Source: Halocafeteria seosinensis | Lineage: Eukaryota > Sar > Bigyra > Bicosoecida | Assembly (NCBI GenBank): GCA_001687465.1 | Contig: LVLI01000135.1 | Span: forward strand, 1 to 64,000 | Reading direction: 5' to 3' | Length of the DNA: 64,000 nt | Part shown: in pieces, positions 9,665-64,000 of the stretch | Position numbering within the stretch: position 1 is the stretch's first letter | How the letters are laid out: the number at the start of each line of letters is the position of its first letter | The notes under the pieces: generated by a model | What the model saw: the letters and a program-made list of their open reading frames with translations, nothing else | Told to the model about the DNA's origin: nothing | Database searches by the model: none | Made by a program: the position numbers and the translations under genes

Positions 9665-12092
9665 TTATCGAAATAAGGCATCATACTCATCTTTATCAGA
9701 CTTCTTTGCTCCAAACGTCGGTTTCGCAAAAGGATCTTGATTCATCTCACCACCCACATCATCATCCGTATCATCCCGAAGCCACGGAGGTAAATCATCT
9801 GGTGCATTGCTACTACTGGCGCCGACATTTTGTTTCGAATTGTGATTGTGTCCTTGGTTGTTATTTTGCGTTAGCGTCGCAAGCAGTTCTGCATCCCCAT
9901 CGCTCCCGTCAAAGTCCTCATCGTACTCGTCTTCGTTTCCAGAGTCAGCCAAATTAGAATAGTCCACATTAGCCAATCCACGATTGCTACTACCTTGGAC
10001 GTCCTGAGCATTCGGCTGTCTTCCATGGAATTGTACGTGAGAGATCTTACCACTCTCATCATGACTATTGTCCTGGGATTCATCAGGATGGTGAACTCTA
10101 GATCCCTGGTTGGCTTTCACCTGATTCAAAGATGCCTTTTTGTACCATGAGGGCATCTCCTTTCCCAAGGAGGATTCCTTTGAGTCTTCCACATCACCTT
10201 TCTCTTCCGGCGGCTCAACGGTGTGCGAGGCAACCTGTGACTGTTGCGTCTGTCTTCGCCGTGTTTCTTTTTCTTGAAGCTGCTGAACAACACTATGCTG
10301 TTGCGCAGGGTTCTGACTTTGAGCATTCCGGGCGTTCGCCTCGGCGAGTTGCTTCTCCAAGTGCTGGATATGCTCGAAGAGCTGTTGTCTTTCTTGCGTC
10401 CATTCTTGCTCCGCTGCACGGAATACATGCACTGGCACGTAGTTGTTGTCGTCCTTCTTTTTCTTTCCGGAGGGAGAATTCGCCGGGCTCGACTGGGCTG
10501 ATGAGGACGGAGTAGCGTGCTTGGAGCCGGCTCCACCTTTCTTACCTTGTTGTTGCTTTAGGTTCCGCAGTTTAGCCTTCAGATCCCGATTCTGATCAAC
10601 AGTATTCATTAGACGCTCTCGTTGTTTATCATAATCTTGCTTCGCTTTCGCTTCGTTTGCTTGGGCTGCTCTTAGGCGTTCCTTCAACGAGCGGACATCT
10701 TCCGACATGGCTGCCAGACGCTGGGGAAATTCTGAATTAGCTTGGTCTTGTTCATCGATTTTACGCACAAGCTGACGCTGCATATTCCGTAGAGCTTTGT
10801 TTTCGTCGGCCATCGCAGCCAACTGACGCTGAAGATCGCGCTTTTCATTCTCCATGTTCATTATTTGATCCGTTGCAAAGGCCCTTTCAACCTGTTCTTT
10901 CTTAGATTGCAATGACTTTCTCATACCCTCTAGTTTTTTCGTCAGATTCCTAATTTGTTTGTCTTTGTTTGAAAGCTCTGTTAGTAACCGTCTCCTCTCC
11001 GCGTTTGCCCCCTCACTGCCTTGTTTACTTCCGACACTGTCGCGACGCTGAGCTCCGAAAGCCCGGGCTTCCTCCAGCTGGCTGTTCAGTTGTTGCACTT
11101 GACGCCTCAATGCTTGGTTTGCTAAGCGAAGTTTCTGTAGTGTTTCTTCTGGAGATTCCGTACTCCTGTCTATATGTGGTCGGCCATTTCTTTCTCTGGA
11201 AGGTTCGTCTCCTTCAAAAGTCGCAAGGCCCATTTCGTTGCCACCGCTGTGCCGCGATGACCGTCCAGACCGTTGTGACAACGGAGCTCTGGACGAACCA
11301 TCATCTGCATACCACATTCGTTTACGAAACAGCAACAGACAGTGATTCCCGGCTGTTTCCAGCCCGCCCTCTTGCATTCAACTTACCACCACGTTCTCGT
11401 CTTGAGAGTGAAAGGTCTGCGGCCGCATCCAAAATCAAAAATCAATGATATAGAACTAATACATAGGGTGGAAATCCCACTCACCATGTTCTTTTCGGTC
11501 ACTATTTCCTGAACGCAATTCGCGCGGTGGTCCTCCTCCTCCAACGCCACCGCCCGAAGGCTTCAGTTCTCGGGTCTGCATGCAGTTCCAGGTAGCAGTC
11601 ACTCAAAACACCAACCAACATACGAACATGTTCTTCGACATATCTATCTACCAACACCGGTGTGAGGACTTGTGGAAGTCAATGCGCGTAAAGTCGGGCT
11701 CTGTCGCAAGACGAGCTATGACCGATGCGACCTCCCAACGGAACACCCCCGTGCCGAGGTGCCTTTACCCAAAGCTGAACTAACGCGGTGGAAAACAAAC
11801 TTACCAGGCGTGTTTTCTGGTTCCCCTGCATGGTAGGAGAGTGACCATTTTGGTTGCCGTTGCCTCCTCTGTGCTCAGTGGTCTTAGTCCCATTCATGAC
11901 TGCATTGGTGTCGGTAGCATCGGCATAGCCGTTGTTGTGATGAGCATCTTCGTCGACTACTTCGTGTTGCATATGTTCATTGCTCTTTGTTTGCTGACCT
12001 TGGGCGGCTATAGCGTCGGCTCCTTCAAAGTCGCTCCCATAGTCGTCCTCCTCCTCATCACCTGAGCTTTCTGGGTAAGGAATAGCAGACAT
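9665..12092 (-). CDS. Lebercilin-like coiled-coil protein
   Basis: Probable ciliary or basal-body scaffold. Four exons, 11805-12092, 11485-11575, 11387-11416 and 9665-11304, give 682 residues with matching phase; one exon is only 30 nt. The N-terminus is acidic (SSGDEEEDDYGSDFE), then Gly/Pro- and Arg-rich. The centre, about residues 180-420, is a long coiled coil including LRNMQRQLVRKIDEQDQ, FPQRLAAMSEDVRSLKERLR and RERLMNTVDQNRDLKAKL. The order resembles the lebercilin (LCA5) domain: a basic helix, then an acidic E-F/L-P step, then EVRxLxxxLR. The C-terminus is acidic and ends with DDLPPWLRDDTDDD and a basic KKSDKDEYDALFR. Lebercilin binds intraflagellar transport proteins in vertebrates. 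The link is a pattern match to a coiled coil, so the name is tentative, while the gene structure is well supported. Confidence 0.7.
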
Positions 12093-26230: not shown

Positions 26231-29200
26231 ATGAGCAACTCCTTGCAGGAAGATAGTGCAGAATATAGCGATGTTGTCCCTGCATCGCCCAGTGGAGGCC
26301 GTCCCCATCGACCGGCTTCTAAAACCAAACGAGGAACTACTGGCCCCGAGGCCTCCGTGGAATCATCTCAGTCTCTGGAGGATGTCATTAACATATCTCG
26401 CCCCCGAAAGCGCTCAGCGGCTGCTTCTCATATTGACTCTTTATTTGATCAGATGAAAATGACGGACGCCCGCCGTCATATATTCCCATATGTCAAGTAA
26501 GCTGCTAGATTCCCCTTGTGGGAGTGTCTGAGATGCAGATTCTCTGAAAATTTTGCGTATTCGTTGTTTTCGTGTCGGAGGGTTATATTAGTTATACTGC
26601 AATGACTGATTTTGGCTACAGGGCTCTTAGGGAAAAGTCTGGGCAAAAAGATGTCGACGCACCGGTGGAACTACGGGACTTACAGAAATTAGCCTGCTTC
26701 TGGAAACTGAACAAATCGTCAGATTTCTGGAGCCAGCATTCCACCTCGGAATCTCTCCTAAGGGTTCTATATGATCATGCAAAACGACATGAGAAAGATC
26801 CGTTACCGAAGAAAGAAAATAAACGACCGCCCTCTAAGGGTAGTGAAGCACTTTGGTCCAGTCGAAAGGAGGTTGTACCGGAAACCAAGGAAGACCTCAC
26901 AGAACCGGAGCCCTCCATTTCTATGGGAGAATTTTCTCCGTACAAAGGGGATCTATTTAGTACCCGCGGAAGCTATGAGAGGGGTATAATATACGCCTCG
27001 AGGAGAGGACGGCGGGTGTCCAGCATGACTGAAGGTGCGCAGGAGAGTGAAGGATCCCATACTGTGCGCGATCAAGAATCAACTATGCAGAGTGAGCATG
27101 ACAGTGCAAACGTCACCCAAATGAAGAGTCAATCATCTAGCTCGAAGCATGAGTCAAAATATGGCGATGGGGATACTGGCCGCTTCAATGCATTCGAGGT
27201 TCTAAGAATGTCTTCTACCGCTACGCTTGCAAACGTGTCGTTCGATGAACAGGAGCGAAAACGCATTGCTGAGTCTGGGGCAGCTCAAACATTGTTTGAA
27301 ACTTGGAAGTCCTCACCTAACCAGATTATCAAAAGGAACTGTGCAATCACTCTGGCCAATGTCTTTAGCACTGAGGTGTTCCCTCATGACGATATGCTAT
27401 TGCCGATAATCACTCTCTCCTCCATCGACCCTTCGCTTTACGAACTTCTCAAGGAGGTACCTTCCACTGTTGTGCGCGTAAAGGAGGACTGCCAGGGAAA
27501 GGAAGTTATGGCGGCAGCAGCTCAGGCAATCTATCAACGGTTGCACAGCGGCACAACACTAGATATCATCTATTTACCGGGGATACTTGCCGCGTTAACC
27601 AGCATAATTCGTTACAAGATGTCAGATAAGTCTACTAGGCTGAAATGTGTGGAATCGATCCTGCAAAGTCTTCGGGTCTGCAAAGAAACAGGTTTTGACG
27701 ATGACCCAGATGTTGACCAGTACATTGGAGACTACGACGAACTTGAAGATAGTAGTGACGACATCAACCAGGTTGCTGCGGGGAACCCGTATTCGAAGGG
27801 CGGCAAAGGTACAGATAATTCTGAGGATGCTTATTACGCTCCTCATCGGACTGCGATAGAAAATGGGGTCGTACCGTTGATTGTTCGGATGCTCGACACC
27901 CCTTTAATGAATGAGAAGGCCTCAGAGGATTCCAAGACCCACTCGACCATGGTAAAAGAAGTATGCACTAAGATACTAGCAGAACTTATGCATGCCCCAA
28001 ATGCTCGATCCGAACTGAATAACCGTGTCGTTCCCGCATTACTTGAACTGGTGTCAGAGAAGAACGGAAATGAAAAAACTAGAGATATCGCCGCAGGAGT
28101 GCTATACGAGGTGTCTATTTCTCATTCAGCAATAGCGGATGATTTGCTAGGTATCGCGGCAGGGGTCGAGGCGTTAACTCGGGCTGCGTTGCGGCAGAGC
28201 AAACTCGCTGCCTTGGCCCTAAAGCATGTCAGCGAAACTAAGGAGCACGATGATAAACTTCAATGTTTTTCTCACAAGTACTACTTAAGTACCGATCCGA
28301 TTGGAACTGAAGAAAGCCTAACATACGAAATACCCGAATGGAATGATATGGCGCTTCGAACGTGCGGTGCGTTGCTTTATATGTCGCGCGATCCCGATCT
28401 TGTAGAAATACTCCTGCCTTGTGGAGCGGCAGACGCTCTTCGACTCTGGTTCGACCTATCAAATGAATTCTCGGATGCAACGGTTATTCGGGAACTGTCA
28501 CTATTAGGATTAGCTAATTTGTTTGAGAAGGTTCAACCGGGCAGCGATAGCGCTCAGACGCTACTGCGCTTGGGCTTCACTAGTGTCATGATTGATGTGA
28601 TAATGAACCCTGTCTCCTCAGGAGAAGGTGGGAGCTGTTCGGAGAAAGCCGAACACATTCGGGAGAGTGCACTCCAGGGCGCTCCATCAGAGTCAAGGTC
28701 ACCAACTCGTCGCTGTGCAAAAGCCCTGTGCAGTTTGAGCAATTCCGACGAAAATACCGTAACACTCCTACTTCAAGAAGGGGTAGTCGATGCGTTATCT
28801 GAAATCTTAGAAACCACACAGGATATTCAATCTCGCAAAGATTCGCTTAAAGCTTTAAAGAATTTATCGCAACGACCTGTATCAATTCCCTGGATGGTTA
28901 ATAAAGGTGAACGGGAAAAAGAATCGGACTCTGGCGAAAAGTTTGTAAATCTTGTAATGGATATCGTACCGAAAATCGAGGATATTGAAGAACTCATGGA
29001 TGTGGTTGATCTGGTATGCTCCCTGAGCCACCACGAGGAGTGTCACTCTGCTTTGTTAGCGGTCTATTCGGAGGAATTACTGCTCAGTCAACGAGGTGTA
29101 GAGGCAGCCAAAGAAGAGCCATGCTTACTGTTTTCCCCTCCTCGACTCCTACAACTTCGCATCTGTCAGTATTATTTCCCCGAAAGATACGGAGATGAAA

Positions 29201-32200
29201 CGGTGGAGGATCAATACCCACTATCTAGTTCCATACCCACTGGCACAATTGATGGTTTACTTGGGATTGACAATGGCAGAATCGTAGGTCCTCTGGAACT
29301 GTTGTCTCGAATCGCAACGCTTGATTCCCCTGTGCGGCACCAGTGCATGTCATCATTGTGCAAGCTTTCTTGGCACAGTGAGGCGCAGACACCTCTAATC
29401 CGGTATGGCTTCTTAGACTTGCTTGCATTTTATGCTCGGGCCGTAGAGTCTTCACTGCGGCGTGCCAGTGCTCAATCCGCGTACAACTTTACCTGTGCCC
29501 GCGACGAGTCGGCTGTCTCCATTGACGCCGATGAGAGAAGAGCGATAGCTCGAGGTGTGGAAGCTGTCTCAAAGAAATACTCAAGTGCTTCTCAGTGTCC
29601 TGCCGAAGAAATTATTTCGAGTGCCGCGACTGCTTTGGAAACGCATCGCAGCCAACACCAGGCTGAATGTTCAACCAGGGATATGCAGATAATTGTTTCT
29701 GGTGTTGCTGCTTCTTTAACTATTGGAGCGTTATTCCGGAGTGACGATGCCTCCACAAAGAGCTTGTGTGCGGCAGCCTTGCACAACTTGGCCTTTGAAA
29801 AAGCTGCGCGCAACTACCTTGTACAGGAAGGGACTCTGTGGGCATGTGTCCGTTTGGCTCTTGAAGCCGAGATTCATGCTCAAGAAGCATCCGCCGATGA
29901 AGAAGAAAGAACTGCGAAGGAGCTTGGCCTTGTCTCAGAGGATCTTGAAGGAGATGATTCGTATATGTCGTACTCAGTTGCAGTAGATGACTCTGGAGTG
30001 TTTCGTGATTGGGACGATGATGATAGTCAGAAACCTGTGGCAGGCCAGGGGCGGGGTGGAAAAACTTCCCGACAACAGTTAGTGGAGAGGCAAGTAAATT
30101 GGCAGCAGACTAAGAAAAGCCAGAAGCTGGCCATTATGCGCCAGAGATCAAATACAACTCAAGCGTCTCCATCCTCCTCCTCTGACGATCAAGACTTTGA
30201 CTACGAAGAGGAACAAACCACTTTACAGAACAGTACTTCCAGCAGGGGTAATAGAGATACTTCTGCATCTCTCGAGGACGGAGATAAAGATATCTCGTTG
30301 ATTTCCTCGCCGATGGTGAGGGCACAGCGTTTGGGCTCCCGTGGAAGATTTTTCTCAACAGATCGGGTATCTGTTGACGGAATGAGCAGCGGCGTGATCA
30401 CTGCGCAGCGAGATGATGAGGAAAACTACTTTACATTCGAAGAAAACGGAGGAGAGACAGGTGACAATAAGAAAAAACCCAGGGTGGTTACAGACGAAAA
30501 TGGAACCCGAGTATTGTGCTTGCCTGAACGCCATTACTCGTTGTTCGACTGCCAATTGACGGCAACTCGGCTCTTAAGAAACATGATGTTCACAACAACT
30601 GAGAGCAATGGAGAAACGGTGCCCTTTTATGAAGTTGTAGCGGAAAAGCGAACCATTGACGCGCTTGTTACATTTGCATCATCTCATCATCCGCTTGTTA
30701 GACTGGACACCTCTGTACTAGTCGCAAATTTGTCCTTGATGAAGAGCTTAAGAGAACCAGTCCTGAAGCGAGGAATATTGGCGGCTGTATGGGAGAGTCT
30801 AGAAGCGACGGATCTACCTATTTCTCTGCGGTGCGCTGTAACTATCCTTCGACTCTGTTGCAATGGGGAAGCAATCAGAACAATCTGTTGCACGGGAAAC
30901 AACTTGGTCCCACTCTTCGACAGGTTACTTCGATACTGTGACAAAATGATTAACGAATGGACTCGTGACTTTCAGTATGGCGAAGAGACTGACAAGCGTT
31001 GCTTTTTGAAGCGGCATATAGGTGCTCACGGTGGAATTGGGACCGGGGCTTGGGAGGGATTCAAAGCAGGGGAGTTTCTTCAGGTGTCTCCATGTCGATT
31101 ATGCAACGACTTCGAAGGTGATATCAAAGAATGTGGTTCTTCACTGAAGGAGAAAAAACCATCGATTCATTGCGCCGACACGAGATGTGGCGATCATGTC
31201 CGTAACCTCTTTTCCCGTATTATGCTGGCTTTAGCCGCTATACTTCGGAGGCTAAGTGAAGTGTCAGCAGCACACGAGACCCTAATCAGTCAAGGGGTTC
31301 ATGGGATGATCTTACATATGCTTCGCACAACGAAGAAAGCTCGAGGGGCCAGTATATTTCCCGAGACACTATGTTTGGCCGGTTGGGAATTTTCTGAGAG
31401 TCAAGAAGAAACAACTATGCGACGACTTACCAACCCTTACAGTAGAATCATGACGAAAATTGTGCACTGTCTTGACAGGCTAATGCTTGTTAGGGCCGCC
31501 GAGGAACCTAAAAATATGAATCAAATCAACAAGAAACTAGCGTTTGTTGTAGGTGGCGAATGTCTAGGCTTGAGGGAAGGATCTGATGAGCTGGATGACG
31601 TCGCGTTGGATGAAGAGACGCATGGAGGACTCCTACCATACGTTTTGAGAATCCTGGCAAATATCACAGCTCATGAGAACACCTCCAAGCTGGTAAAATC
31701 CAACGCAACGTTCACCATCCTGTGCGGCACACTCAGCGGGGGCACAGAAGAAGATAACGTGCCACAATCAACGTCAGATTGCATAAGAACCCTTTCCCTC
31801 CAGAGCTCCTCTTCGAAAATTATGTGTAACCTGCTTGCCGGTATCAAGGAATCCAATGAACTCGACCGTTCAATCTATGAAACAATCGCAGCGAAGCTTC
31901 ATGAATATTCGCAGTTTTGGGTGTGTCAGATTAACCAGTTCCCCGTGCAGTCAACTTTAAACCTGGCTGAGGTTTTCCAAGGCGATGTGGGTTCCACCAA
32001 GGAAGAGTTAACAATGAAAAATGCTTGTTTCGGACACACGTCTTGTGGTCCATTAATATCTGCTCTAACAAATTTGGTTTTCTTGGATGACAGAAAAACT
32101 ATGCAGTATTTTTCTTCATCGCACCCTCCTCCTGAAACCGGAACCCAGCTACCTTCCATGAGTAGGTCGACGAAGATGATGTTGCTGAATACCGTCGCGA

Positions 32201-34923
32201 CGTCGCTGCCGGTGTCGGTTGCTGAAGTAGCCGTGATGACTTGCGCACTGTTGCCGCGTCTGGAGGTGTTGTTTTTTGAGAGTAAGGACGCTCTTAAGGA
32301 TTGCCTTTTAGCGGAGGCTGGCCTTAAACGAGGTTCACTTAAAAGTAGTCACTCGTGGAGCCCGCAGAAGAAAAACAGAGAAATTTCCGACGTCCATATT
32401 TTTGACTTGGCACAAGAACTGATGAATGGTGATGTCAGTGAAGAGACTGTTGATAGGTTAAAGATGCTCATTCCTCAAGACGACGTAAAAGACATGTTTG
32501 ATTGCGTCCTAGAAGAGATCGGGAGTGACCGTTCAGGCGTAGTCGAGAACCTAAATGTAAAACTACACGAAAAATACCGAACGGAGTTAGTGGCAGCAAC
32601 CTATTACAGGAAATCCTTTCACTTCATGAGACGGCTTCAATTATTATCGGTAATAACGATTACGCAGTTTACCCGCGACGAACTACTGGCTCAGAAGCTG
32701 GTTAGCCTGGATAACAAGCAATCTGAGCAGGCTGAGAATAGTGGAGCACCTAATGCATCTGGAGTTGGCGTGAGTATCGTCAGTGCCTTGGGTGCGCTGG
32801 CGCGATGGGGTCGGCCAGCCGTGTCATGCGCTGCCAGTGAAGGAATAGCTAACTTATCCCTTTCAGCCGACAACCGGGCATACCTTTTACGGAAGCGAAT
32901 TGTCCCTACTCTCGCTTCGTTAGCAAGTCAATCTTCAACAGATGCAAATACCAAGCAATGGTGCGCATTAACTTTGCAGCACATGTCCCTCGATACTAGT
33001 CTGCAAGATTCCCTAGTCAACGATGCCCGGTTGGTTAAGAGCGTTCTCCTGATGACGCCTGAGGAAGAGGGAGGTAATGCTGAAAATAGCCAAATGGATT
33101 ACAACCAACCAGACCATTATGGCTTCGAATCCGATGATAATGCTTGGCATATGCTGTACGGTGACGAATACATTTCGGCATCGAACAGCCTCTTCTTAAG
33201 CGAAGATGAAGCCACAAGGCTTCACGAATCGTATCTGCAAGCCCTCATTATGCACGAGAAGTGCTTCACTCTCGGTGGGAGATTCGATATCATGATACCG
33301 CCGTACAGTGATGATGATGCAAAACAAGAAAGAGATGATGTGGAAGGTTATAATTCATCTGGCCTCTTTCTGCGGGTCGGGGGAGTTAGTGCGGGCGAAT
33401 CTAGTGCTCTATGGGACCCTGATCGTTTACCGAACTGGGAAAAACTACAAGGAATTAGGTCTGAGACCTCTATACAGGAGAATGGAGGGAGCGCAGCAAC
33501 TGGAGATGGTGATGAAGATTCCTTGTCCGAGCGGATGATGCATGCGGGTGATAGTGAGAGCACGGCTACTTCGGAGCTGACAGGGGCCGAGGGTCCCGTG
33601 GGCATCTCGCAAAAACATGCTAGGGGGTTAACTCAGCCGTTTCTTGTGCAAGATCGAGGTGACGGCGGTGGTTCCAATGTCGCAGAACGTCGCCGATACA
33701 GTTTAGAGGATATCGCGGTGATGCGGAAAACCAATGCCCCCATGGCACAAGCGTTGGAGGCAGCAGGAACAGTGAGCTCGGAGCATGTAGTCAGAGCTAG
33801 TGGCCGGCTCGGCCTCTCGAGTCTTGTTCTCAATGCATCGTCTCCTTACCATTCATCCAATATCCTTGAGAGTTTGTACGGAAACCGGCGGACAAAGAAC
33901 GCTGCTAGTGGTTCTGGTGACGGTCGGCAAACAGATGCAGCTCTTCATTCTGGCACCCAAAGAACCAGTGAAGATACTACTTACTTGGCTATCAACAAAC
34001 ATGACTTGGGTAGCTCCAGCAGATGGGAAACGGTTGATGTGCTAGGGGAGAAAGAAGAAGAAAAAGAGCACTCCTTCTCTAGCTATAGACATTCTTCTCG
34101 CATGAAGACGCGCCAAGTATCCCAATCGTTCCTGTTTAGGCCTACTTCCAATCGTAACCACTTTGAAGGCGTACTTCTGGACAAGAGCGAGGAGGCATCC
34201 AAACAAAGAAACGAGCTGGCTGCTCGGTCTTTCTCGCGTAAGAGTTTAGCAACTGTTGAACCAGACGCTCAGGAGGATCCCGTCCAGGAGCCTGTCTATT
34301 CTCGTCTAATCAGCAGCAGCCGTGCCTGGGCAGACGATCGTAACACCGACCGTGAGATACGCCGTCAAGCTGCCCTGATCCCGTTGCAGCGACAGCAGCA
34401 GATGCTGGAATCGATACAGGCAAATATTCGTTTCACTGGTTCGGCAAAATCGAGTCATGATCTTATTAGGAAGCAATCGTTGCCTCGGAACTTACAGCAA
34501 TACATGCAGAACCAGAAACATATGATCAAGAATGTTGACAAAAAGGGGAACAGGATGAAAGGAACTACTCATCGCCAACGGAACGTGAAATCTGCTCTGC
34601 AATTACATAAAGCGCACCGCAGTGGCACTGCTACTTCATTACAACGAAGTGCCTCTGCTTTCCAACAAGCTAGAGCAGGGACGGGCCGCAAAAGTACCGC
34701 CAAATCCTCGAGGCGCTCTTCTTCCCGCAAAGTGACATCAACCAGAAGCAAGGACCGTTGCTTACCGGCAAATCGAAGTATTTCTCCGCAGGAAAACTTA
34801 CGAGGAACTGGAAATTCCCTCTCTGAGCAGCATAGCAGTGGTGAAGCAAATGCTTCTTCCTACTATTTTGATGAATCTAGTTTTCTGACCAGCGGAAATG
34901 CCGACTCGGATCCGCAGCAGTGA
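26231..34923 (+). CDS. Giant armadillo-repeat-like protein, 2855 residues
   Basis: Two exons, 26231-26496 and 26622-34923, join in phase. The 125-nt intron is the only one in 8.7 kb. From about residue 290 to 1850 the sequence is a train of alpha-helical ARM/HEAT-like units, recognisable from phrases such as ALCSLSNSDENTVTLLLQEG, SLKALKNLSQRPVS, AALHNLAFEKAARNYLVQEG and GIANLSLSADNRAYLLRKR. Acidic low-complexity linkers separate the blocks. The last 700 residues are disordered and become very basic and Ser/Arg-rich (SRRSSSRKVTSTRSKDR). No catalytic motif was seen. A structural or adaptor role, possibly at the basal body where large ARM proteins are common, is inference. The intact 8.3-kb open frame argues strongly for selection. 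Confidence 0.85.
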
Positions 34924-51072: not shown

Positions 51073-54000
51073 CTACACAGGAACTTCGAGATTATCCAGC
51101 AAGAACGCATACTCAAATGCGCGCTCCCGAATCCACTTATACCGATCTGATGCACTAAAGTGTCCCGAGGACAAATCGGTCTTTAATATGATGGGGTTCT
51201 TGGAAGTCGTCTTCTCCCGCAGTCTTACTGCAAACTTTGCGGCTTCCCAGTACCCTACGCTGCAACTCGTCAAACCAATGCACTAAAGGATTACAAACAG
51301 GCATGTTGTGTAAGAGGGGTACCACATACCGGTGGTCATTCAATCCAGCTTGCAGCAGCGTAATGGGGTACGGCTTTGCCGCGATGTTGTTCATGGGAGA
51401 GTATGACAACATGTACTGCATAAAGGAAACTTTCAAAAATGAAGACGTTGATATATCCTACTTTACGGACGGACTTACATCATAGTACTTGGACTCATTT
51501 GGGTTTCCCCATTCTTCCCATTCTTCAACCGTAAGAGGAATCGATGGATCGCACATCGTTGTCATCAAGTCCACGAATGGCACCGCGGCGACCACGCATT
51601 TCCACAATTCAGGTCGCAGATTTAGGGCATTTCCCATCAAAAGGCCGCCCGCAGACCTTCCGACAGTTGCAATCTTTGTCTTTTCCGCCCAACCCTGATC
51701 AGTTCCCAAGCAGCGCTTAACTCAAACGTATGCGGTTACTTCTTAAGTGCTGGTTTTACATACCAGGTCAATTAATTTATCCGCACAGTCGACGAAGTCA
51801 TAGAAGGTATTTTTCTTTTGCAGGAACTTGCCTTCGTCCTCATACCACTTGCGGCCCATTTCGCCGCCTCCTCGCACATGGGCTGGGTAGACAAAACCGT
51901 TGTGGGACGTCGTTCATTACCGGCTACCACCCTTTATTAATCACTTACCAAAGGCATACACCACCCCTCGGTCGCAAAGTGACAGCACTTTGTAATCAAA
52001 ATCCATGTCGACACTCGCTCCGTAACTCCCATAGCCTGGACACCATTCGCCTTATGTCTTGAGGCTGAATAGTGACTAAGACACACTACAAGAGCACTTA
52101 CCATCAAGCAGCAGAGGGGCTGGGTTGCCGATGAGAGTGTGACCTGACGACGACCCCGGATTCGCGTGCTTGGCTGGGCACCAAACAAGAGAGACCGGAA
52201 CCTGTGTACCATCTCTTACTTCAACGAAGATACGGGTAGTGGCGTAATTCTTGGAATCAAAGTTCGGTACTTCTTTCGTTTTAAGCACATGGGAGTTCTT
52301 CAAGGAAGGTTCACGATGCGGTACCATAGCGTCTTTTTTCACACCGGAATCTCCTGAACGCGAGTCAGCTTCGACATCGAATTCATAGGTCGTTTGAGGG
52401 CAAGTAGGTGATGAGTAAGTGTATCGCAACCTGGATGCATCCCACTCTTCATTTGCCGGACTTGTGCAAATGTCGTACACTTCATCAATCGTGGGTATCC
52501 TGCTGACTGTTGGGACATGTTCTACGCAGCGGTCCAAGTTGTCCAAATTAGCCAGGGCCTGTTTTAATGAAGCAGAGTGCACAACCCAAATATGAGGATG
52601 GCTATTTTGGCGACCTTCAAGCACAATGAAGTCACTGAGCAAAGAGAAGGTAGCATAATGTAGTTGTTGTTTTAAACGAATCGACATTTTTGTTTGACGT
52701 ACCGGAAGCAATCAACGTCCTCAATGACCACCTCATGCCGATGAGGAATTAAGTCTATCCACTTAGAATCCTGTTGACGTTCCTCCACAACTGGTGTCAC
52801 ACAGACCTTAAAATTCTTAGCTACTCCCGCGTTGGTAAGAATTAGAAGCAAGTCTTTTTCTACTCCTTGAGAATCCGCATAAATCCAGTGGTCAACCTCG
52901 TAAAGGACATCCTCCTCCCGTGGCTTAACTAATGACATTGTTGGAGCGTATTTTCTCTCTCGTTTACTTGGATTCTTCAACCAATCATGTACTTTTCTAA
53001 GGTCTAGTAGATGGCATTCAGCCGTCGTTTTGCTGGTCGCTTCCGCCACAAGAAAGCGCTCCGAGCGCGCTTTCCCTATCTCCAATACAAATCTATCGTC
53101 TTCTTCCTCGAGCAACATGATGTCCTGGTTTTGCTGTGTACCAACAATATGCATCCACAACTTATCAGGGCGCATAGTTTCGTCCTTGGTTGTGTAAAAT
53201 AACACATTGTCATCAACACCCCATTCGAGGTTACCCGAAGTTTTTCTGAGAACGAAATCTGGCTTTGCACTGTGCCCCGATGCTCGCCTATAGTGTACGT
53301 CGTAATTCTCATTCCCTTCGTAATCGACACCTGCCAAAACAACAAGGAACGTCTGTCATGTATCCAGGAAACATTTCTTACTCTTGTTTCGCAAACGTAC
53401 CATAAGCTACAAATTCATGGGAAGGAGACGGAGAAACAGCCGTCACGTCACAATGGGACTTGCCCTCACCAAGAGTGTTCACATCCAGATATAGCTCCTC
53501 TTTACCCGGTTTTCCATTTTTCAAAAACTGGCGACAATATAATGGGTAGCTAAGACCTTCTACAGTTCGCACAAAATACTGGTACGGCCCATGCTTGTAA
53601 GGCACTTGGCTGTCCGTCTGCTTGAGCCGTGATAGCATCTCTCGGTAAAGTGTATTCGTCGAGCCCGAGAGATGCCGCGTCACATAGTCAGCATACGTGT
53701 TCTCCCGCTCCAAGTGTCGAATGATATCCGGATCTTTCCGATCATCGTCTCGAAGCTGCACCAAAGGATTATAGTTGGTGATTGTCCTCTTCAGTCTCAT
53801 CGATGCGCGACTTACCCAGAAGAGGTCATCGTTGTGAACAATTGGTGGATTCATGGGGTTATCACCTCTGTCTTCTCCCTCGACCTCGCCGAAATAGACA
53901 TTGTGAGGGATCTTTTCCGGGCCTGCAATCAGTGATCAACACACAAAACAAAAAAAAAAAGCAGCTATAACGCTTATAAACTTTCTTTTGAGGAAGTCGT

Positions 54001-54208: not shown

Positions 54209-54610
54209 TCACAGTCTATAATCCCTCAATTCACACCGACTCTGGTCAGAGTCCTTGGAGCAAGACGAATTCAACAACAAAATGACCGGGGAACCGCTAT
54301 ACAACACTTTTGTAGCAGGTGTAATCAAGATGTCCCGAACGATCGGCTTCAACTTTTTTTTCGGAACAACAACTTACGACAATCTTTTCGTCGAGCTAGG
54401 AATTCAAACGAGGCTTTCTTGACCATTGCCGTCATTTTACATCAATTTCAGAGGATTACTATCCCCCTTATTGTGGTCAATCGATGGTTTCTCAGTCTAT
54501 TTTTGTATGAACCTTGGCGATACACCCGTAGATTGTACTATTGTTGTTATCGAGGGCAAAGAGCATCTGCGCGCTCCAATTTGAATTGCAAAAAAGCGCT
54601 TTGGAACACT
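54209..54610. promoter_or_regulatory. Divergent promoter region, oligopeptidase B / RING-BRCT gene
   Basis: About 400 bp between two divergent start codons. The plus frame is open upstream of 54611 back to 54419, with no features, and is more likely leader than coding. No specific regulatory site is recognised. Confidence 0.4.
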
Positions 54611-56661
54611 ATGGAGAAACAACAGGCTGTACAAGACGAAGAACAGGTTGTTAAGCAATTTTCGACATGTCTGGAAGCTTTTGGAAAGGAATTAAAATGC
54701 CCCGTCTGTCTAGGATTAATGGATAACCCATACGCTGGAGCCTGTGGTCATCCAGCGTGCTATGAATGCTTCGTACATGCCTTGGAGGCTACCAAGTGTT
54801 GCCCCGTATGCAAAACCCCCGGAAAAAAGCGATCTTTGAGGCCAAGTATCCGGTTTCAGTCGTTTGTGCACGCGTACCGCTGTCTTCAGCCTCAGAAAGT
54901 GCGCAATAATTTGCAAACTCAGGTATGAAAGTTGGAAGACTGCCGCCTGCGCTGTCACGGCTCATTGCTGGTTTTATGCAGTTCTCCCAACTTATTGGCT
55001 CGACCCAAGTTTTCGGAGCGATGATGGGGAAATCCAAAAGCTCTCTAGACAATATAGATGAAGCGACTTCGAGTGCCGCTCCCGTTGATCGTACACATCG
55101 CACTTCTGCGGCGTCCGCAGCACCGACAGCTATTCCGTCGGCAAGGGCAGTGACGCAGGAAACCAGCAGCGACATCCCTGCTGAGTCCGCCGTGGTGACA
55201 TCTACTAGTGAGACCACGAACTCCGCCTCCTGTGCAACCAGCGTTGGTGTCTCTCCGGCTACTGCAGCCCACGAATCTGTGGTTCCTAACCAGGCGAGCA
55301 GTAGGACAGATACGAGGACGCCACAAAACCAGAAAACTAACAAAAGAACTAAATCGAGTAGTAATAGCTCAGGGAAGAAAAGGTCTCGACGTCCGTTGGG
55401 GGAAAGAAGTGCCAATAGAGTGGTTGAACCAAAGCAGCAAAATAGCTCTCGAAAGAAACGGCGAGACATCCCTTCCTGCAGAAGAAACGAAGGCACCTTA
55501 GCAGGGAAGCTCTTCTCTGCACATACAACTGAAGAAGATATTACGCGCATACTGTTGGAAGAACCGGTTGTATTTTGCTGTGATGGTCTAGCGATGGAAG
55601 AACGAAATCACCTACAGAACCTAGCGGACAAGATTGGGGCTACCATCCAGGATAGTTGGAGCGAAGACGTCACTCATTGTATTTTGTCCACTGTGGCTGT
55701 AAACACAGATAGAGACCACGCCACCGTGGAAGATGTTCAACGAGTTGCCCATTCTACTGCTGCAGTGCGCAGTGGCCGTGGCTCTCAAAGACTTCAGGAG
55801 GAGCAAGTAAGAACAGAGAAGAAGCGAAATCGGTTTTTCTTGGCACGTAAGCGAACATCGAAATACTTAATGTCTATACTGTCAGGAGCGTGGGTTCTCG
55901 GTCCGGATTGTAAGTGCGAAAGCGGCTTTCTACGTATCCACCGGTTCGGTAATTGTTCTTTTCTTTCTCAGGGATATCTGCATCCAGCATGGATACAGCT
56001 CCTACACTTATCGGAGAAGATCCGTACCAAGTTATAGGAGACGTGGAGACGGCGGCTTCATCGCTTTGTAAGACCATGATAAACAATGGGCCGCGACTGG
56101 CACGGTCTCTCGCTGTTCGCGAAAAAGAGAGTCCAGCCACTGGCATACTAGATGGCCGTGGCGTGGTTTTGATTGGAGAATGGCAATTTCCAGCGCCTAT
56201 AGAGAAGGATATAATAGAGATGCTAAATTATCTTGGGGCTGGAGTACGTAATCAGAACAGGAGTACTGCTTGATATAAATCCATGACTGGTGTCCATTGC
56301 TGCAGCAGATTTTGCGCCCTGAATCCCGAGAAGATGATTTCCGGAATTTTATGAAGGACGCGGATCAGCGTTTCATCGAGGTCATTGTCCTTGCTGACGC
56401 AGATAACTGCCGATGTAAGTTCCGTGGTCAGTGGCGGGGCATTAACTGCCTTCCCTCTTCATTCCAGTTGTCACCAACGCAGTGGCCGGGTTTTTGGATG
56501 ATGAAATAAAGGAACGCCGAAACGCGTCGCGGATGAATGCAGTCCAATTGAAATTGGCGCCCTTACAATGGCTATATGACACGATCTGCACGTTTTCGTT
56601 GGTAGAAACTTCAGCCTATAACACCACAGTCCGAGTGTCGAGGGCTGCGAGAAAGACGTAG
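54611..56661 (+). CDS. RING finger plus tandem BRCT protein (BRCA1/BARD1-like)
   Basis: Likely ubiquitin ligase of DNA-damage repair. Five exons (54611-54922, 54982-55909, 55972-56243, 56309-56414, 56468-56661) join in phase to 603 residues. The N-terminal RING is complete at residues 30-67: CPVCLGLMDNPYAGACGHPA continues to CYECFVHALE and CCPVC, flanked by helices as in BRCA1 and BARD1. About residues 110-285 are disordered and Ser/Thr/Arg-rich with basic nuclear-localisation patches (SSRKKRRDIPSCRR). BRCT 1 spans about 300-415 (LADKIGATIQDSWSEDVTHC, then WVLGPDWISASMDT). BRCT 2 spans about 460-590, with GRGVVLIGEWQFP, RFIEVIVLADADNCRF and the conserved PLQWLYDTICTFSLVETSAY. No ankyrin repeats are present, unlike animal BARD1. 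The exon 4 acceptor is a CAGCAG doublet (56306 or 56309). Confidence 0.88.
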
Positions 56662-56734: not shown

Positions 56735-59607
56735 TCACTGTGGAGCGTGACTGAAATGAGGTGTGGTGTAACCGATACCAGTGGAAGCGATGGTGAAGAG
56801 CCCAAGGACGATAGATACTATCCGTTCTTGAGACAGAACCACGCCGGGCCACATTGTCAATGCCAACACGTTATCGCGCACAGTTTCTCGAACGGTGTTC
56901 AGAGCTTTTGAAGTTTGGTGGAGGGTGTGCAAGTTTTTTTCTTCGACTGCCGAACGTTCGCCCCTTCGAATAGTTCCCTGACGGGTCTCCAACTGTTCTA
57001 CTGCCGTCTGTTGGTTACCTAAGAGTTGGACCTGCCTAGTTTGTTGCTGTTGCAACTTCGAGGCGTTGTAGAAGACGTACAAAAGTACAGCTATGGCGTA
57101 TAAAGCGTCCATCAGCACAGTGCTGTTCAATGCGATACTTTTGTCGTTTACCAGTACCAAAAGGAGATGTCCCAGAGCGAAACCCACCATAATCATAGGT
57201 AGCAGTAGGACACAGCTGGAGTCTGCAAAAGCTTCCTGAGTTTGGTAGAATAGGTTCTGTCTAATGTGGATCCAAGAATATATATTCTGGGGATTCTCAG
57301 GCAGGACATTGTATGAACAACGCTCTTCCTTGCTACAACAGCAGTTGTCCGCTATCCAAGAACATATATTCTTGGAATTCTCAGGCAGGACATTGCATGA
57401 ACGACGCTCTTCCTCGCTATTCGTCGATCGACAACAGTAGTTATCCGCTTTAGCATCGTTTTTCATCACAAGAAGCTTCGTCACATGTTTCATTGTTTCC
57501 AAACACATCGAAGCGGTTCCTCCGGCTACATAAAGTATCATAAAGACTGCAACGCCCATTAAAATCGCACTACCTCCTCGCATCACCCAGTATCCAGTAT
57601 TGTTCATATCAGAAACGTCTTCTAACAGTATCGGCCTTCCGCTAGCAATTCTTGATACAAAGGAGCAAGCCACATGTAAGGCAAAGACGAACCCGCCCCC
57701 CCAAATCGAGACTCTTTTTTCTTTCTTTACTAGGTTCACCCGGGCCTTCAACAAGATATCGTTTTCTATCTCTTCAGTCGTCCAGCTCGAGCTTTCTACA
57801 CCCCTGTTCTGATGCTCTACATCCTCTGGCTGATCTGCGAACGCTTCCATGGATTTTGTCACAATCCTACATTGGCGAATCCTATGCGACTGCTTTGATA
57901 GTGTACTTGTTGCAGACCAGCCAGCATAAAGGATGCAGACCCCTGTGAAAAGGGTCAGGTACTGGTGAGCAGCTGCCCGAAATGCCTCTCTGACAGAATG
58001 TTCTCCCACTTCTTCTACTGAATAGTATACTGCAATACCGAAGATTGCCAAACAAACGCTGTGAGCAATCAGCATTACACCTATTTTGCAATAGGCACAG
58101 AAAGTGCGATCTCCTTCGTGGCTGAATCCAATCGGGTTGGCGATGGTGATCCGGCGCGTGACCGCTCGCCATGGATTGCGGACAAATAGTCCTTTCCCTG
58201 GTCCCCAGAATGAACGTACGTGCCGCAATCTGGCGCGTTTCCACAGTCTTTGAGACCACTCATAGCACCAACTTACTCGCGAGCTTCCTGTATATACTCT
58301 GTCTTCATGGTTCGGTCCTAGGGAAGATATAGTCTCACTCCCAGGCTGGATGTTGTCCTCGCGATTTCCGAGTAAAGAGTCGATCGGAGCTTGTACTGAG
58401 CGGTTTAGTTCGTTTTGAAATAAATTAGCCACCGTTGCTCGTGCGATCTTAAAAGCGCTCTTCAGGACATGTAGGCATATAGCTGCATTTAGCAATGCTT
58501 CGATGAAAAAGAGAAAACTAAATTTGAGATCCTCCAACAATTCATATTCCCAGATGGAAGTTGATAGCCTATGTCGGAAACTGTGTTCCTCGGGGTTCAC
58601 GCCATCGGTCTGGATTTTAAAGTAATCAGACTGCGTGATTACTTCATTCTTCTTGTTTGTCTTTGAGACATCGGGGCTCATCACAGATTCTCCGCGACCA
58701 TAGAGGTGATGGTCCAAAGCACCGGCTTTAATAGTTTTTACTCGAAGCTGCTCCTGAGAGTTCTCGTCGTGTCTTCCCTCATTGTGGTATGCCATGATAT
58801 AGGATACGCTTAGATCCACGACAGAAACGAACCATTCTTTGGAACATTGCCTCCCGCTCCACTCTGCGAATTCCAACGGTAATATATGCGCAAGGACTAC
58901 GCCGGGAAACTCAAACTTATTCCGTACTCGTCTAATATCACGAAAGAAGTTTCCCGGGATTTGGATTTCAGAATCTCTGGGTTTTCGAATCAGAAACACT
59001 ATTCCAAGTAAGTTGCCGATGTTTGAATCCAGTATTTCCTTCATCCAATACTCTGCCTGTTTAATCCAATATGCTAGTCCTTTTACCCAAGGTACAACGG
59101 GTTTCTCTCCAAACACCCCATCGATGGTAACGTAGACGATATTAGCACTTTGAATGTACGGATAGGATCCAGCGTGGACTCGTCATGATCTAATTCCCTC
59201 CATATCAGCTTGAAAGTTCCGGAACCCCCATTGCTACGTCGCGCAAATTCGTTGTTTGCCCCAGACTGGGCTCCTGTATTGCGCTGTTGGGGTACGGCAA
59301 GTCTCAGATTCTCGATCCATGAGGGATCAAATGCATCTTGCCCGAGGTTACCAACGGAAGTAATCCAAAGTGGTTCCTGTCGCTCTGTCGCCTCAGAATC
59401 CGGATGAAGATTCTGTGGATACAAGTCGTGGCCTGGAGTGTTTGGAATGGCACAGGCGATCAATCTGTCACCTGGTCGAAGGTATGGAACAGAAAGACGC
59501 ATCTCCCTCGGAGGGTCCCTGTCGTCCTGGTTATTGTCACGACGTAGCGGTTTGTACATGTCTTTCGTTTTTTCAGTGGGATCCATGTCCATGCTCATAT
59601 GGTTCAT
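56735..59607 (-). pseudogene. Multi-pass membrane protein family, copy 1, one-base frameshift
   Basis: This is a close relative of the 60857-63790 gene along its whole length. The N-terminal frame (59607 down to about 59165) ends correctly as IWRELDHDESTLDP and then shifts. The continuation, YIQSANIVYVTIDGVFGEKP through to PHFSHAPQ at 56735, lies in another register. Against copy 2, six bases replace seven between GGATCC and TACATxCAAAG, so a single base is missing near 59160-59170. No intron fits because the residues on both sides are conserved. The membrane region holds about nine hydrophobic helices plus a Gln-rich coiled coil near the C-terminus, as in copy 2. A repeated short block (NVLPENSKNICSWIADNCCC and NVLPENPQNIYSWIHIRQNL) shows a small internal duplication. 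It may be a young pseudogene, an assembly error or a recoded gene. Confidence 0.72.
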
Positions 59608-60562
59608 TGTCCGACGCTGTTGCACTGGCTAGAGATACAAAGAACACCAGACGCAAGATTGCTAAACCTTTGGGTCCTGAATTGTCTCGTTAGCGATTGA
59701 GGCTCTTCAACGCGAGGTGGGTGACTTTACGAAAGCTTAACAACACGTTGCTTTCGGCGGGTATTCTTCCATGGCGACGCGTTCCCTCTGCTGCACTGCA
59801 GGCCCAAACCGCCCGGCGCGTGCCATGTTCTGTACAACTGTACAGTACTGTACTCGTTCATGTCGTCGTACCCCGAGTAAACTGGGTACAGCAATGGTGA
59901 TGGACTGGAACTACATTTCAGATCGATCCTTAGATATTCATGGAACTTTGCGTCTACTGATAGCCGAGCAACCCTCATGATTAGTCGTTCCTCCCAGCTG
60001 CAGCGCCATGTGTGAGGTAACGTCGATTACATATTGTATGCACAGACTTTACTAGCAAGGCCACGAAGTCGAAAATACAAAGAATGAGACATTCAGTGAA
60101 TAATGAAAGCCTCAAATTCTGTTGCAAGCATGCGATGTAGAAGATGGGGTGCATGGGTGTGTGTACTCGGCGGAGCCATTCGCCGCCAATGATTCGCGTA
60201 CCCTGTCGGTGTGCGACGAATTCCCCGGCGGTCTCCTTGCTTTCCGTCATCGAAAAAAGTCTATGCACACCTGCACTGGTCAATATGGCACTCAACATAT
60301 CTAGCTTGCGGCCGAAGGGGATCATTATGTAGAAGTGGACTTGCGTGTCATTTGCCACCAAGTTATTCATTTTCGCAGCATCAACGAAATCGTCCTAGCT
60401 GGTCTACCTTGGAAAAAATGATACAACAGGTGACACTTACCGTCGTTTTCCATCTTCTGTCATCCCATTCTATAGTCAGCTGCATCGCCTGAACATTTAT
60501 TGCCGCAATCATTCGACCCAATGGCACCTAGCCGATGACGGCCAAACCGTGTGCGGCCGTGT

Positions 60563-60612
<50 letters not shown>

Positions 60613-60856
60613 TGTGTGTTGGTATGTGTCCCATTAGCAGCCCCACGGGAAAGAAACCAATAGATTCGTTAAAAGGACAAGTGGTATAACACTAGTATAG
60701 TTTAGTCAGATACTATTTAGACAAGGATTCAAACGGAATACCATGGTGAAAACAGGCAAAAGTTCAAGCAACGAGATTAGTAGTTCGTAAATTTCCAGAT
60801 CACAACAACTAAATTTGCATACGATGTCCGAGCAGGTTTATCTGGCCTTTCACTGA
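59608..60856. other. Intergenic with (GT)n tract and a possible small minus-strand gene
   Basis: Separates the two membrane-protein copies. A 129-codon minus frame with a true ATG (60370 down to 59981) contains MIPFGRKLDMLSAILTSAGV and RQGTRIIGGEWLRRVHTP and looks more protein-like than chance. A preceding exon-like piece ending at a GTAAGT donor (minus, about 60439) could feed it. No family is recognised and I give it about one chance in three of being real. Confidence 0.35.
60564..60622 (+). repeat. (GT)n microsatellite
   Basis: About 58 bp of almost perfect tandem GT with a single T insertion, in the gap between the two paralogous membrane-protein genes. Confidence 0.92.
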
Positions 60857-63790
60857 TCAGCCATGATGGCTAAAATACGGAGTTACATAGCCTATGACGG
60901 TAGAAAGAAGTGTAACAAGGCCAATGACTATGGACAGAACTTGCTGCTGAGAAAGCACTATCCCAGGCCATAAGGCGAGTGCCAAAACGTTGTCCCGAAC
61001 GGTTTCACGCACTAGTGCCAGAGCTTTGGAAGTTTGCCGTAGCAACTCAACAGTACCAGTATCTGTCCTCTCTGTATCTTTTTCTTTCTGCTTCCGACGC
61101 AGTTGGTCCTCCAGTTGTTCTACTACTGTTTGTTGGTTGGCTAGAAGTTGCACCTGTCGAGTTTGCAGTCTTCGCAAACTCGAAGCCCTGTACATGACGA
61201 ACAGAAGAAGAATCACCACGAATAATGCATCAATCAGTACATTACTGCTCAAAGCTATGCTCTGCCCTTGTACCAAAACTAGAATAAGGTGACCGAAAGC
61301 GAAAGCGATCATGAGCATCGGTATCAATAGGACACAACTGGACTCTGCGAAAGCTCCTTGAGTCTGGTAAAACAAGTTTTGCCGAATATGGATCCAGGCG
61401 TAAATATTCATCGGAATCAACGGAAGGATATACACCGAGGAGTTTTCCTGCCTTGATCTCCAAGTGCATCTACCACAGCATACCGTTTTATCTTGTCCCG
61501 ATTTCTTTCTTTTTGCACCGAAACTTCCACTGTTCTCCTTTACTACTAGCAGGTTTGTTACAGTCTCCATTGTTTCTAAGCACATAGAAGCTGTTCCGTC
61601 CGCTAGGTAGAGTATCATGAAGGTTGCAATGCCCATTAGCGCCCCACTTCCGATACGCAGCATCCAATACTCGACTCTATCCAGGTCTTTAACATGTTCT
61701 AATCCCACAGACCTTCCGATGATAATTCTGGAAAGAATTGTACAAGCAACATGCAGAATGACAGCCACTATACCCCAGAGAGCAGCGATAGTCTTCCGAT
61801 ATCCAACTAAGTTTTGCTGAGCATCATTTAGGATAATATTTTCAATCTCTTCAGTTGTTCGGTAGTCCCCGTCGGCTCCAGGAAGAAACGAGTTCAGCGT
61901 CGAGTCTAACCCCTGTCTAAATATGTTTCCTCCAGCATTCAGCTCCTGTCGATGGATCATTTGTATTGCTTTGGACTTGATTCCTAGATCACCCACAGAC
62001 TTGGGTGCAACCAGAACACTGCACTGGCGGATGCGTGACCATTGTTTCGGTAGTAGGGTTGTCGCAGCCCACCCGGCATACAGGAAACAAATCCCAGTAA
62101 AAAGGGTAATGTACTGATGGGCAGCAGCTCTGAAGAGTTGACGGACATCAGGTTCCGTTGGTCCGTCTAGCGAAAAATATATGGCGCGTGCAAAAAGAGC
62201 TGCACAAGCACAATGTGCAACAAGCATTAGGAGTATTTTCCCCCGAGTGTTCACCGTCCTGTCCGCAGCATCGCCTAATCCAATAGGATTGGCTACGGTA
62301 ACTAATCTGGTAACCGCACGCCACGGGTTTCGAACAAAGAGTCCTTTTCCAGCTCCCCAGAACGACCGTATGTGACGCAGCCGGGTACATTTCCATAAAC
62401 AGTTCCCACATTTATACAAATGCAAATGCAACCAGCCAAATTTTCGGTTTGGGGTGTGTAGCTTGTCAGTGAATGCGCGACTTGAAGCATTAGGTGGAGC
62501 AAACGCTGACGTATCGACAACTGTTGTAGAACTCGTGTGCTGCGTACCGGAAAAACCACAAAGAACAAAGACAACGGTGGCTCGAATCGATCTTAATGCG
62601 GCTCTCAGTTCATGAAGGAACATAGTCATGTTCAACAGAGCCTCGAAAAATAGGACAATGCTAAACTGCAAGTCCTCAAACAATTCATAGTCCCAAATCG
62701 ACGTCTTTACCGTGGTGTAATCTTCGTCGATAGTGCGTTTTCCGCTTCCAAACCCTTCCCTTACCCGTATCACTTCATTTTGATGTATTCCCTTAATTGG
62801 GCCGTGATTTAGGGAGTGTTTGACTGTGTAGAAGTTGTCGTCCATCGGATGAGACCAATTGAATCTTTTCCACACATGCTCGGGAACCTCGGACTCCTCG
62901 TATGTTTCCGGATGGTTACTCTCCGTTCTACTGCGGCATTTCATGATGTAAGATATACTTATATCGACAATGGAGGTAAAAAGCTCCTTGGGACACTGCC
63001 CAATCTCCAGACCTTGTTCGGTTTGCCGGATATCTACAGGTATAAGGTGAGCAAACACAGTTCCGGAAAAGCAAAGCTTCCTACGGATCCGTTGGATATC
63101 CGCAAGAAAATCTTCTGAAAGCTCCCCATCTCTAGTTTTCCTTATTAAAAACACAATGCCCAACAAGTTTCCCATGTTGGAATCGAGAATCTCCTTCATC
63201 CAATATTCTGCCCTCTTAATCCAATATTCCAATTGCTTCAGGCAAGGGGCCTGCGGGGTTGCTCCAATGATTGCATCCAGAGTAACGAACACAATATCAG
63301 CACTTTGTATGTAGGCTAACGGATCCAAAGTAGATTTACCGTCATCAAGTTCTCGCCATATTATGTTGTAGACTGAGTCTCCCAAGCGACTGGCAGAACT
63401 GTCTCCATCTTTGGGGTTGTGTCGAGGACCCCCTTCTTCATTAGATACGGACAAAGTCAGACTATCGACCCACTGAGATTTGAAGAGAAATTCATTGATG
63501 TTGCCAAGAGATGTTATCCAAAGCTGTGTTGGCGGCTCATCCAGCTTCTCGATCCCAGGGAAAATATCTTGTGGAGGCGGAATCCTGGCGTCACTGTCGG
63601 ATATAGAGAATGCTACAAGTCTAGGATCCGGATGAAAAGGATAATCCTCCAGATCTTCAGCATGAACATATCTTTGCTCGATGTGCGCACGATGATGTTG
63701 GTCCTGGTTAAGAAGCCGGGCCTTGTGCTCCCCGTTGGTGTGAACCACGGGAGCACCAGAATCGTTCACGGCAGAATATGAGCGTAGCAT
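60857..63790 (-). CDS. Large multi-pass membrane protein, unrecognised family, copy 2
   Basis: Intronless, 977 residues from the ATG at 63790 (MLRSYSAVNDSG); the frame is open another 56 codons upstream with one more ATG, so the start is uncertain. Residues 1-370 look soluble and alternate strands and helices: QLWITSLGNINEF, IIWRELDDGKSTLDP, ADIVFVTLDAIIG, GNLLGIVFLIRKTRD and GTVFAHLIPVDI. This could be a Rossmann- or GTPase-like fold without an evident P-loop. From about residue 400 there are some nine hydrophobic helices (LMLVAHCACAALFARAIYFS; TLFTGICFLYAGWA; IVAVILHVACTILSRIII; LLIPMLMIAFAFGHLILVLV). A Gln-rich coiled coil (QTRQVQLLANQQTVVEQLED) precedes a last pair of helices. The neighbouring copy 1 is a tandem duplicate. 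Channel, transporter or receptor are all possible; I know no matching family. Confidence 0.85.
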   Translation of the reverse strand: MLRSYSAVNDSGAPVVHTNGEHKARLLNQDQHHRAHIEQRYVHAEDLEDYPFHPDPRLVAFSISDSDARIPPPQDIFPGIEKLDEPPTQLWITSLGNINEFLFKSQWVDSLTLSVSNEEGGPRHNPKDGDSSASRLGDSVYNIIWRELDDGKSTLDPLAYIQSADIVFVTLDAIIGATPQAPCLKQLEYWIKRAEYWMKEILDSNMGNLLGIVFLIRKTRDGELSEDFLADIQRIRRKLCFSGTVFAHLIPVDIRQTEQGLEIGQCPKELFTSIVDISISYIMKCRSRTESNHPETYEESEVPEHVWKRFNWSHPMDDNFYTVKHSLNHGPIKGIHQNEVIRVREGFGSGKRTIDEDYTTVKTSIWDYELFEDLQFSIVLFFEALLNMTMFLHELRAALRSIRATVVFVLCGFSGTQHTSSTTVVDTSAFAPPNASSRAFTDKLHTPNRKFGWLHLHLYKCGNCLWKCTRLRHIRSFWGAGKGLFVRNPWRAVTRLVTVANPIGLGDAADRTVNTRGKILLMLVAHCACAALFARAIYFSLDGPTEPDVRQLFRAAAHQYITLFTGICFLYAGWAATTLLPKQWSRIRQCSVLVAPKSVGDLGIKSKAIQMIHRQELNAGGNIFRQGLDSTLNSFLPGADGDYRTTEEIENIILNDAQQNLVGYRKTIAALWGIVAVILHVACTILSRIIIGRSVGLEHVKDLDRVEYWMLRIGSGALMGIATFMILYLADGTASMCLETMETVTNLLVVKENSGSFGAKRKKSGQDKTVCCGRCTWRSRQENSSVYILPLIPMNIYAWIHIRQNLFYQTQGAFAESSCVLLIPMLMIAFAFGHLILVLVQGQSIALSSNVLIDALFVVILLLFVMYRASSLRRLQTRQVQLLANQQTVVEQLEDQLRRKQKEKDTERTDTGTVELLRQTSKALALVRETVRDNVLALALWPGIVLSQQQVLSIVIGLVTLLSTVIGYVTPYFSHHG

Positions 63791-64000
63791 TGTTCTTCTT
63801 CCGCCACTACACTTATAGTACAAAAGCAATTCAATATTTGCCACTACAAAAAGGCATCTCTCTTGCTGACAATACAACTCTTCTACCTGTTCATCAAGGG
63901 CGGGTGGCGGTTTCTTGCCCCGCACCGTATGCATTTGTAGATCAGCATTCCGCAACACTGTGACGCTTCTCTACGACACAGCTCAAATTACAGCTACAGC

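Follow-up and report, generated by a model that had tools for sequence, protein, structure and literature searches.

The stretch of DNA considered here (the window) is positions 1 to 64,000 of contig LVLI01000135.1 of Halocafeteria seosinensis, C89:1-64000 in our numbering of an assembly of 30.6 Mb in 605 contigs. Near its end lie two tandem genes, A and B. We consider it rather probable that they encode lineage-specific, tandemly expanding proteins of the 7TMIC fold with a fused N-terminal alpha/beta domain, and that these are gated channels or sensors. For the C-terminal half, of about 470 residues, the fold of the insect odorant and gustatory receptor channels is supported at low confidence by structure models. 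At the sequence level the family is real, new and lineage-specific.

Fold of the membrane half

The pattern of hydrophobic segments and loops pointed to the 7TMIC fold before the fold searches, and the best PDB fold matches of two low-confidence models are insect odorant and gustatory receptors. This superfamily alone heads the two rankings, its entries filling the top 17 and 18 places. In the AlphaFold2 model of the core (pLDDT 46) the helices at 198-242, 289-336, 345-399, 407-436 and 444-472 would fit an anchor of transmembrane segments (TM) 4-6 and a split TM7.

Several observations weigh against this assignment. Both structure models are of very low confidence, and the fold-search tool carries warnings about helical models. 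Profile-profile comparison of the region from before TM5 to the end gave 0.1% to GR and 0.3% to Orco, while GR and Orco, the positive control, found each other at 72.5%. The insect Pfam models matched no family member in the genome, there was no family match for Pfam 7tm_6, 7tm_7 or DUF3537, and the animal GR/OR TM7 motif, (T/S)Yhhhhh(Q/K/E)(F/L/M), was read in none of the 10 rows of the alignment. With regard to size, GRL and DUF3537 proteins have 350-500 residues, which A with 977 exceeds, the core alone (505-977) having 473. As there is no profile signal, no insect Pfam match and no TM7 motif, we treat the relation as a probable fold and not as shown descent.

The same low model confidence, tool warnings and missing signal to GR and Orco beside a working control would also fit an unrelated polytopic family of new fold, be it transporter, scaffold or receptor, that resembles 7TMIC proteins by chance or convergence. 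We think this unlikely, though it is the most serious competitor, given that one superfamily heads both rankings and that the segment pattern had already suggested it.

An earlier note, made from the sequence alone, had guessed at sensors or channels, and this guess is supported. It also held that its reading would fall to a confident match, over the full length, with a characterised family. The receptor match covers the C-terminal half only and comes from low-confidence models, so no match of that kind has been obtained.

A new family and its expansion

The two minus-strand genes were first described as having almost 1000 codons each. This holds for A, an open frame of 1033 codons (60857-63958) in which the family-like ATG at 63790 leaves 977, and not for B, which a frameshift near 59150, of one base net relative to A, splits into two overlapping frames. 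Either decay or a fault of the assembly may account for it; rescue of the split by an intron was checked by reading and rejected. The B counterpart of the ADIVFVTLD block is in its second frame. A and B have about 50% identity over 757 aligned codons, a match far beyond chance (E 9.2e-212), and the conserved blocks quoted in the note are common to both.

The tandem duplication and the adjoining microsatellite were rightly recognised, B being a relative of A on the same strand with a dinucleotide repeat at 60559-60619. The array runs on past the window on C89, and every member has the minus-strand orientation. B and A are followed by a fragment with stops at 64.3 kb, a pseudogene resembling A (72.4-75.0 kb, with parts at 87-92% to A) and the intact gene D (75.2-78.3 kb). 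A leucine-rich-repeat frame with near-identical repeats (C89:65485-66405, plus strand) sits in the array gap.

No relative outside the species was found when A (residues 57-1033 of the open frame) was compared with 5.8 billion proteins, the matches scored including only P0001 and P0002, both from the same species; a 9-row profile of the membrane half, searched against the same number of proteins, gave among the matches scored only P0001. Each search scored only about 8000 candidates sharing exact words with the query, which means that distant relatives may have escaped. The SLC12 gene of the window, used as a control in the same kind of search, gave 727 proteins with the nearest outside the species at 58%. 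In Pfam, A gave UPF0093 (E 0.022) and WLS-like_TM, both far below cut-off, B gave DUF3185 and RIC3, both below cut-off, and the best match over 10 members was DUF5522 for one member (E 0.0039). PDB searches gave a best E of 0.044 with the sequence of A and 5.9 with the family profile, and a phage collection gave zero matches. A weak match of the A coiled coil to the calcium uniporter in the PDB sequence search (E 1.4) was dropped. None of these Pfam and PDB sequence matches is convincing, and the note's view of the family as undescribed is supported at the sequence level.

Six-frame genome searches with five members, together with open-frame mapping, give lower bounds for family size. There are at least 11 near-complete members, in four subgroups: {A, D, B, C536}, {C63a, C63b, C416}, {C108a, C108b, C603} and {C118}. 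At least 6 fragments were also found (C89 64.3 kb and 72.4-75.0 kb, C603 4.6-5.6 kb, C108 20.2 kb, and C66 8.6-9.7 kb and 1.2-2.2 kb). The paralogue count proposed in the note thus bears out the larger lineage-specific expansion at which it had hinted. Seven members have a single open frame (A, D, C536, C63a, C416, C108a and C603); C63b is apparently intron-split (GTATGT...CAG, by reading), C108b is without 8 bases present in C603, and C118 consists of two overlapping frames. The subgroup on C108, C603 and C66 has near-identical copies (92-96%) with frameshifts and fragments, which may be recent duplications or unmerged haplotypes, and some of them (C603, C66) may be other haplotypes.

Transcripts of the same species match D over 1015 residues with 1 difference and C536 over 1181 residues with 3. 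The ratio of non-synonymous to synonymous substitution (dN/dS) is 0.22 for A-D, 0.24 for C63a-C63b and 0.19 for C108a-C108b, and is higher for C108b-C603 (0.40) and for A against the 3' part of the pseudogene (0.34); pairs with B and C536 are saturated. Judged from these codon comparisons, there is purifying selection between A and D.

These data bear on whether a true 7TMIC fold might serve a non-sensory role, for example in an intracellular membrane, like PHTF, or as a scaffold whose pore has been lost. Most non-animal 7TMIC relatives are without shown channel activity according to the authors of PMC9998090, the TM7 motif is absent, and the starts of A, D and C536 showed no signal peptide. 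However, genes that duplicate in tandem again and again under purifying selection are more in keeping with a receptor repertoire than with a housekeeping protein, without excluding the latter, and we regard a non-sensory role as improbable.

Topology

When hydropathy is averaged across 10 rows, the C-terminal half has eight strong segments, TM0 and a core of seven; single rows give 7 to 11 peaks. The core segments in A are TM1 519-537, TM2 561-579, TM3 668-686, TM4 713-731, TM5 820-838, TM6 849-867 and TM7b 951-969. About nine membrane helices had been counted earlier; a ninth, weak peak at residues 166-184 is a predicted strand of the soluble domain. The Gln-rich helix does precede the last membrane helix, as claimed; putative TM7a is followed by the turn WPGIVLS and then TM7b at 60884-60940 (Table 1).

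Table 1. Features of genes A and B in the window (all sequence residues are those of A)
Feature	Position	Strand	Basis
Intact gene A of 977 codons, with N-terminal alpha/beta domain and 7TM core	60857..63790	-	open frame, family alignment, dN/dS against D
N-terminal alpha/beta domain, residues 86-290	62921..63535	-	9-row alignment; strands and helices of low-confidence model
TM0, extra hydrophobic segment before the 7TM core, residues 374-392	62615..62671	-	averaged hydropathy; basic stretch behind it in 10/10 rows
Predicted seven-helix core, residues 505-977	60860..62278	-	hydropathy, AlphaFold2 model, PDB fold matches
Gln-rich, predicted cytosolic extension of TM6 and putative TM7a, residues 868-942	60965..61189	-	model helices 345-399, 407-436, 444-472; sequence
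Gene B, tandem relative of A, frameshift-split near 59150	56735..59607	-	frames 59083-59625 and 56735-59182
Part of B aligned with the 7TM core of A	56738..58132	-	alignment
Dinucleotide microsatellite between A and B	60559..60619	.	Tandem Repeats Finder, 31 copies, 93% matches

At aligned positions, the loops of all 10 rows are by turns long (63-110 residues) and short (10-30 residues), the long loops being TM2-3, TM4-5 and TM6-7. Between TM0 and TM1 every row has a stretch of net basic charge, and the cytosolic placing of the long loops follows from this stretch alone, since the density of lysine and arginine in the other loops does not vary with loop length. Given this sidedness the intracellular loops are longer than the extracellular ones in 10 of 10 rows, which is the rule for 7TMIC proteins. 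The structural definition of the 7TMIC superfamily includes an intracellular N-terminus. If TM0 spans the membrane the N-domain would lie outside, and flanking charge fits this in 9 of 10 rows. The starts without signal peptide speak for a cytosolic N-domain with TM0 only inserted, and the domain may lie on either side. The conserved blocks RSFWGxxK (between TM0 and TM1) and YxWLxxRQ (before TM5) are on the predicted cytosolic side.

The number of hydrophobic segments, seven or eight, would also suit a family like the G protein-coupled receptors (GPCRs) or an ordinary 8-TM carrier, but this is very improbable, as the C-terminus opposite the long loops and the basic N-side of TM1 are the inverse of a GPCR, no GPCR is among the 50 fold-match entries listed per model (one, at prob 0.04, appears in another PDB fold search), and Pfam on 10 members gave no such family.

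N-terminal domain and a possible mechanism

The soluble N-terminal half is common to both genes, as the note had it, and its alpha/beta domain is present in all four subgroups. In the low-confidence model the predicted strands ITSLGN, ADIVFVTLD, GIVFLIRK and GTVFAHLI alternate with helices, and the 9-row alignment has five invariant columns (R, Y, D, W, E). With regard to the suggested nucleotide-binding fold without a P-loop, an alpha/beta half is plausible from the strand-helix-strand order and the conservation across subgroups, and Walker A, GxxxxGK(S/T), is absent from residues 1-370 of A by reading. Profiles gave nothing to indicate nucleotide binding: Pfam with 9 N-domain rows gave no GTPase family match at E up to 10, and a PDB search with the N-domain profile gave zero matches. 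Upstream of the C118 member the frame at C118:139248-140588 (minus strand) carries the alpha/beta domain. In front of the domain it has an extra hydrophobic segment, a strong one (hydropathy 2.11), which the other members checked do not show.

A 7TMIC protein of this kind would have seven helices, those of TM3-TM6 being long, with short non-cytosolic loops and long cytosolic TM2-3, TM4-5 and TM6-7 loops; its final helix would be interrupted, with TM7a in the cytosol and TM7b in the membrane. On the analogy of Orco and Gr43a, we would expect four subunits to assemble through TM7a and the cytosolic ends of TM4-6, and TM7b to line a cation pore. An agonist or partner would open it, gating being either by a ligand in the membrane bundle or by the N-domain. 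The alpha/beta domain, tethered via TM0, could be a ligand- or partner-binding regulatory module, and the RSFWGxxK and YxWLxxRQ blocks could couple it to the anchor. The tetramer, channel activity, ligand, membrane and side of the N-domain are inferred.

Comparison with known 7TMIC proteins

Among ligand-gated channels, those with which insects smell and taste form one of the largest families, with few relatives described outside animals (PMC7746228, PMC9998090); our statements on these two papers cover the portions available to us. With Orco, Gr43a, Gr9 and Gr64a the family shares the seven-segment layout of the core, the alternation of short and long loops and, as far as the low-confidence models go, long TM4-6 and a broken last helix. 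It differs in having no detectable sequence or profile similarity and no TM7 motif, and in adding TM0 and an N-terminal region of about 370 residues with the alpha/beta domain.

The trypanosome GRLs with N-terminal MORN repeats (PMC9998090) are similar in fusing a 7TMIC fold to a large N-terminal domain and in having relatives found only within one lineage, but there the domain is MORN and there is one protein per species (two species screened), against at least 11 near-complete members and an alpha/beta domain here. The plant DUF3537 proteins and the GRLs of single-celled eukaryotes such as Vitrella, Thecamonas and chytrids (PMC7746228) likewise have seven TMs, longer intracellular loops, extreme divergence and small families, of up to 6 in one protist. 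However, they are of 350-500 residues with no fused domain reported, and they resemble known GRLs or DUF3537 at the HMM (hidden Markov model) level, which our family does not do for GR and Orco. PHTF also has the fold without sequence similarity but is conserved across eukaryotes (PMC9998090), whereas our family is from one species only among matches scored. It was structure that revealed trypanosome GRLs and PHTF, their sequence similarity being slight or nil, and the authors do not exclude convergence (PMC9998090). Conduction by non-animal relatives is mostly unknown according to the authors of both papers.

The MORN-7TMIC fusion of trypanosomes was called the first example of domain fusion by its authors (PMC9998090), and no alpha/beta-7TM fusion is described in the portions of the literature covered, the broadest survey, Himmel et al. 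2023, lying outside that coverage. If our reading is true, this would be a second kind of 7TMIC domain fusion, and a multigene protist case of at least 11 members for testing ligand, gating and origin of the fold. We tentatively suggest, at somewhat less than even chances, that the protist has its own expanding tandem repertoire of insect-chemoreceptor-type 7TM ligand-gated channels with a fused alpha/beta sensory or regulatory domain, independent of animal repertoires.

Other genes in the window

The SLC12 cation-chloride cotransporter gene (3441-7104, plus strand) has a frame of 994 codons and matches a EukProt transcript (TSA prefix GECG01) at 99%; the transcript protein P0003 is of 1146 residues, with about 150 more at the N-terminus. 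A tree of SLC12 alone, with 39 rows, places the species within a 15-row clade with Cafeteria, and as the tree groups them we guess at a stramenopile placement. The RuBisCO large chain was not found in the assembly. A lebercilin-domain protein at 9665-11377 (minus strand, Pfam E 1.6e-11) suggests a ciliated life stage.

There is also a 2783-codon frame with armadillo repeats at 26572-34923 (plus strand), and a pair of overlapping frames at 52076-53337 (minus strand), the upstream one matching the prolyl oligopeptidase beta-propeller domain (E 2.1e-32). At 54419-56273 (plus strand) a RING-finger frame (54419-54928) overlaps by a few bases a BRCT frame (54925-56037), which is followed by another frame, and the arrangement resembles a gene of the BRCA1/BARD1 type spread over several frames or exons.
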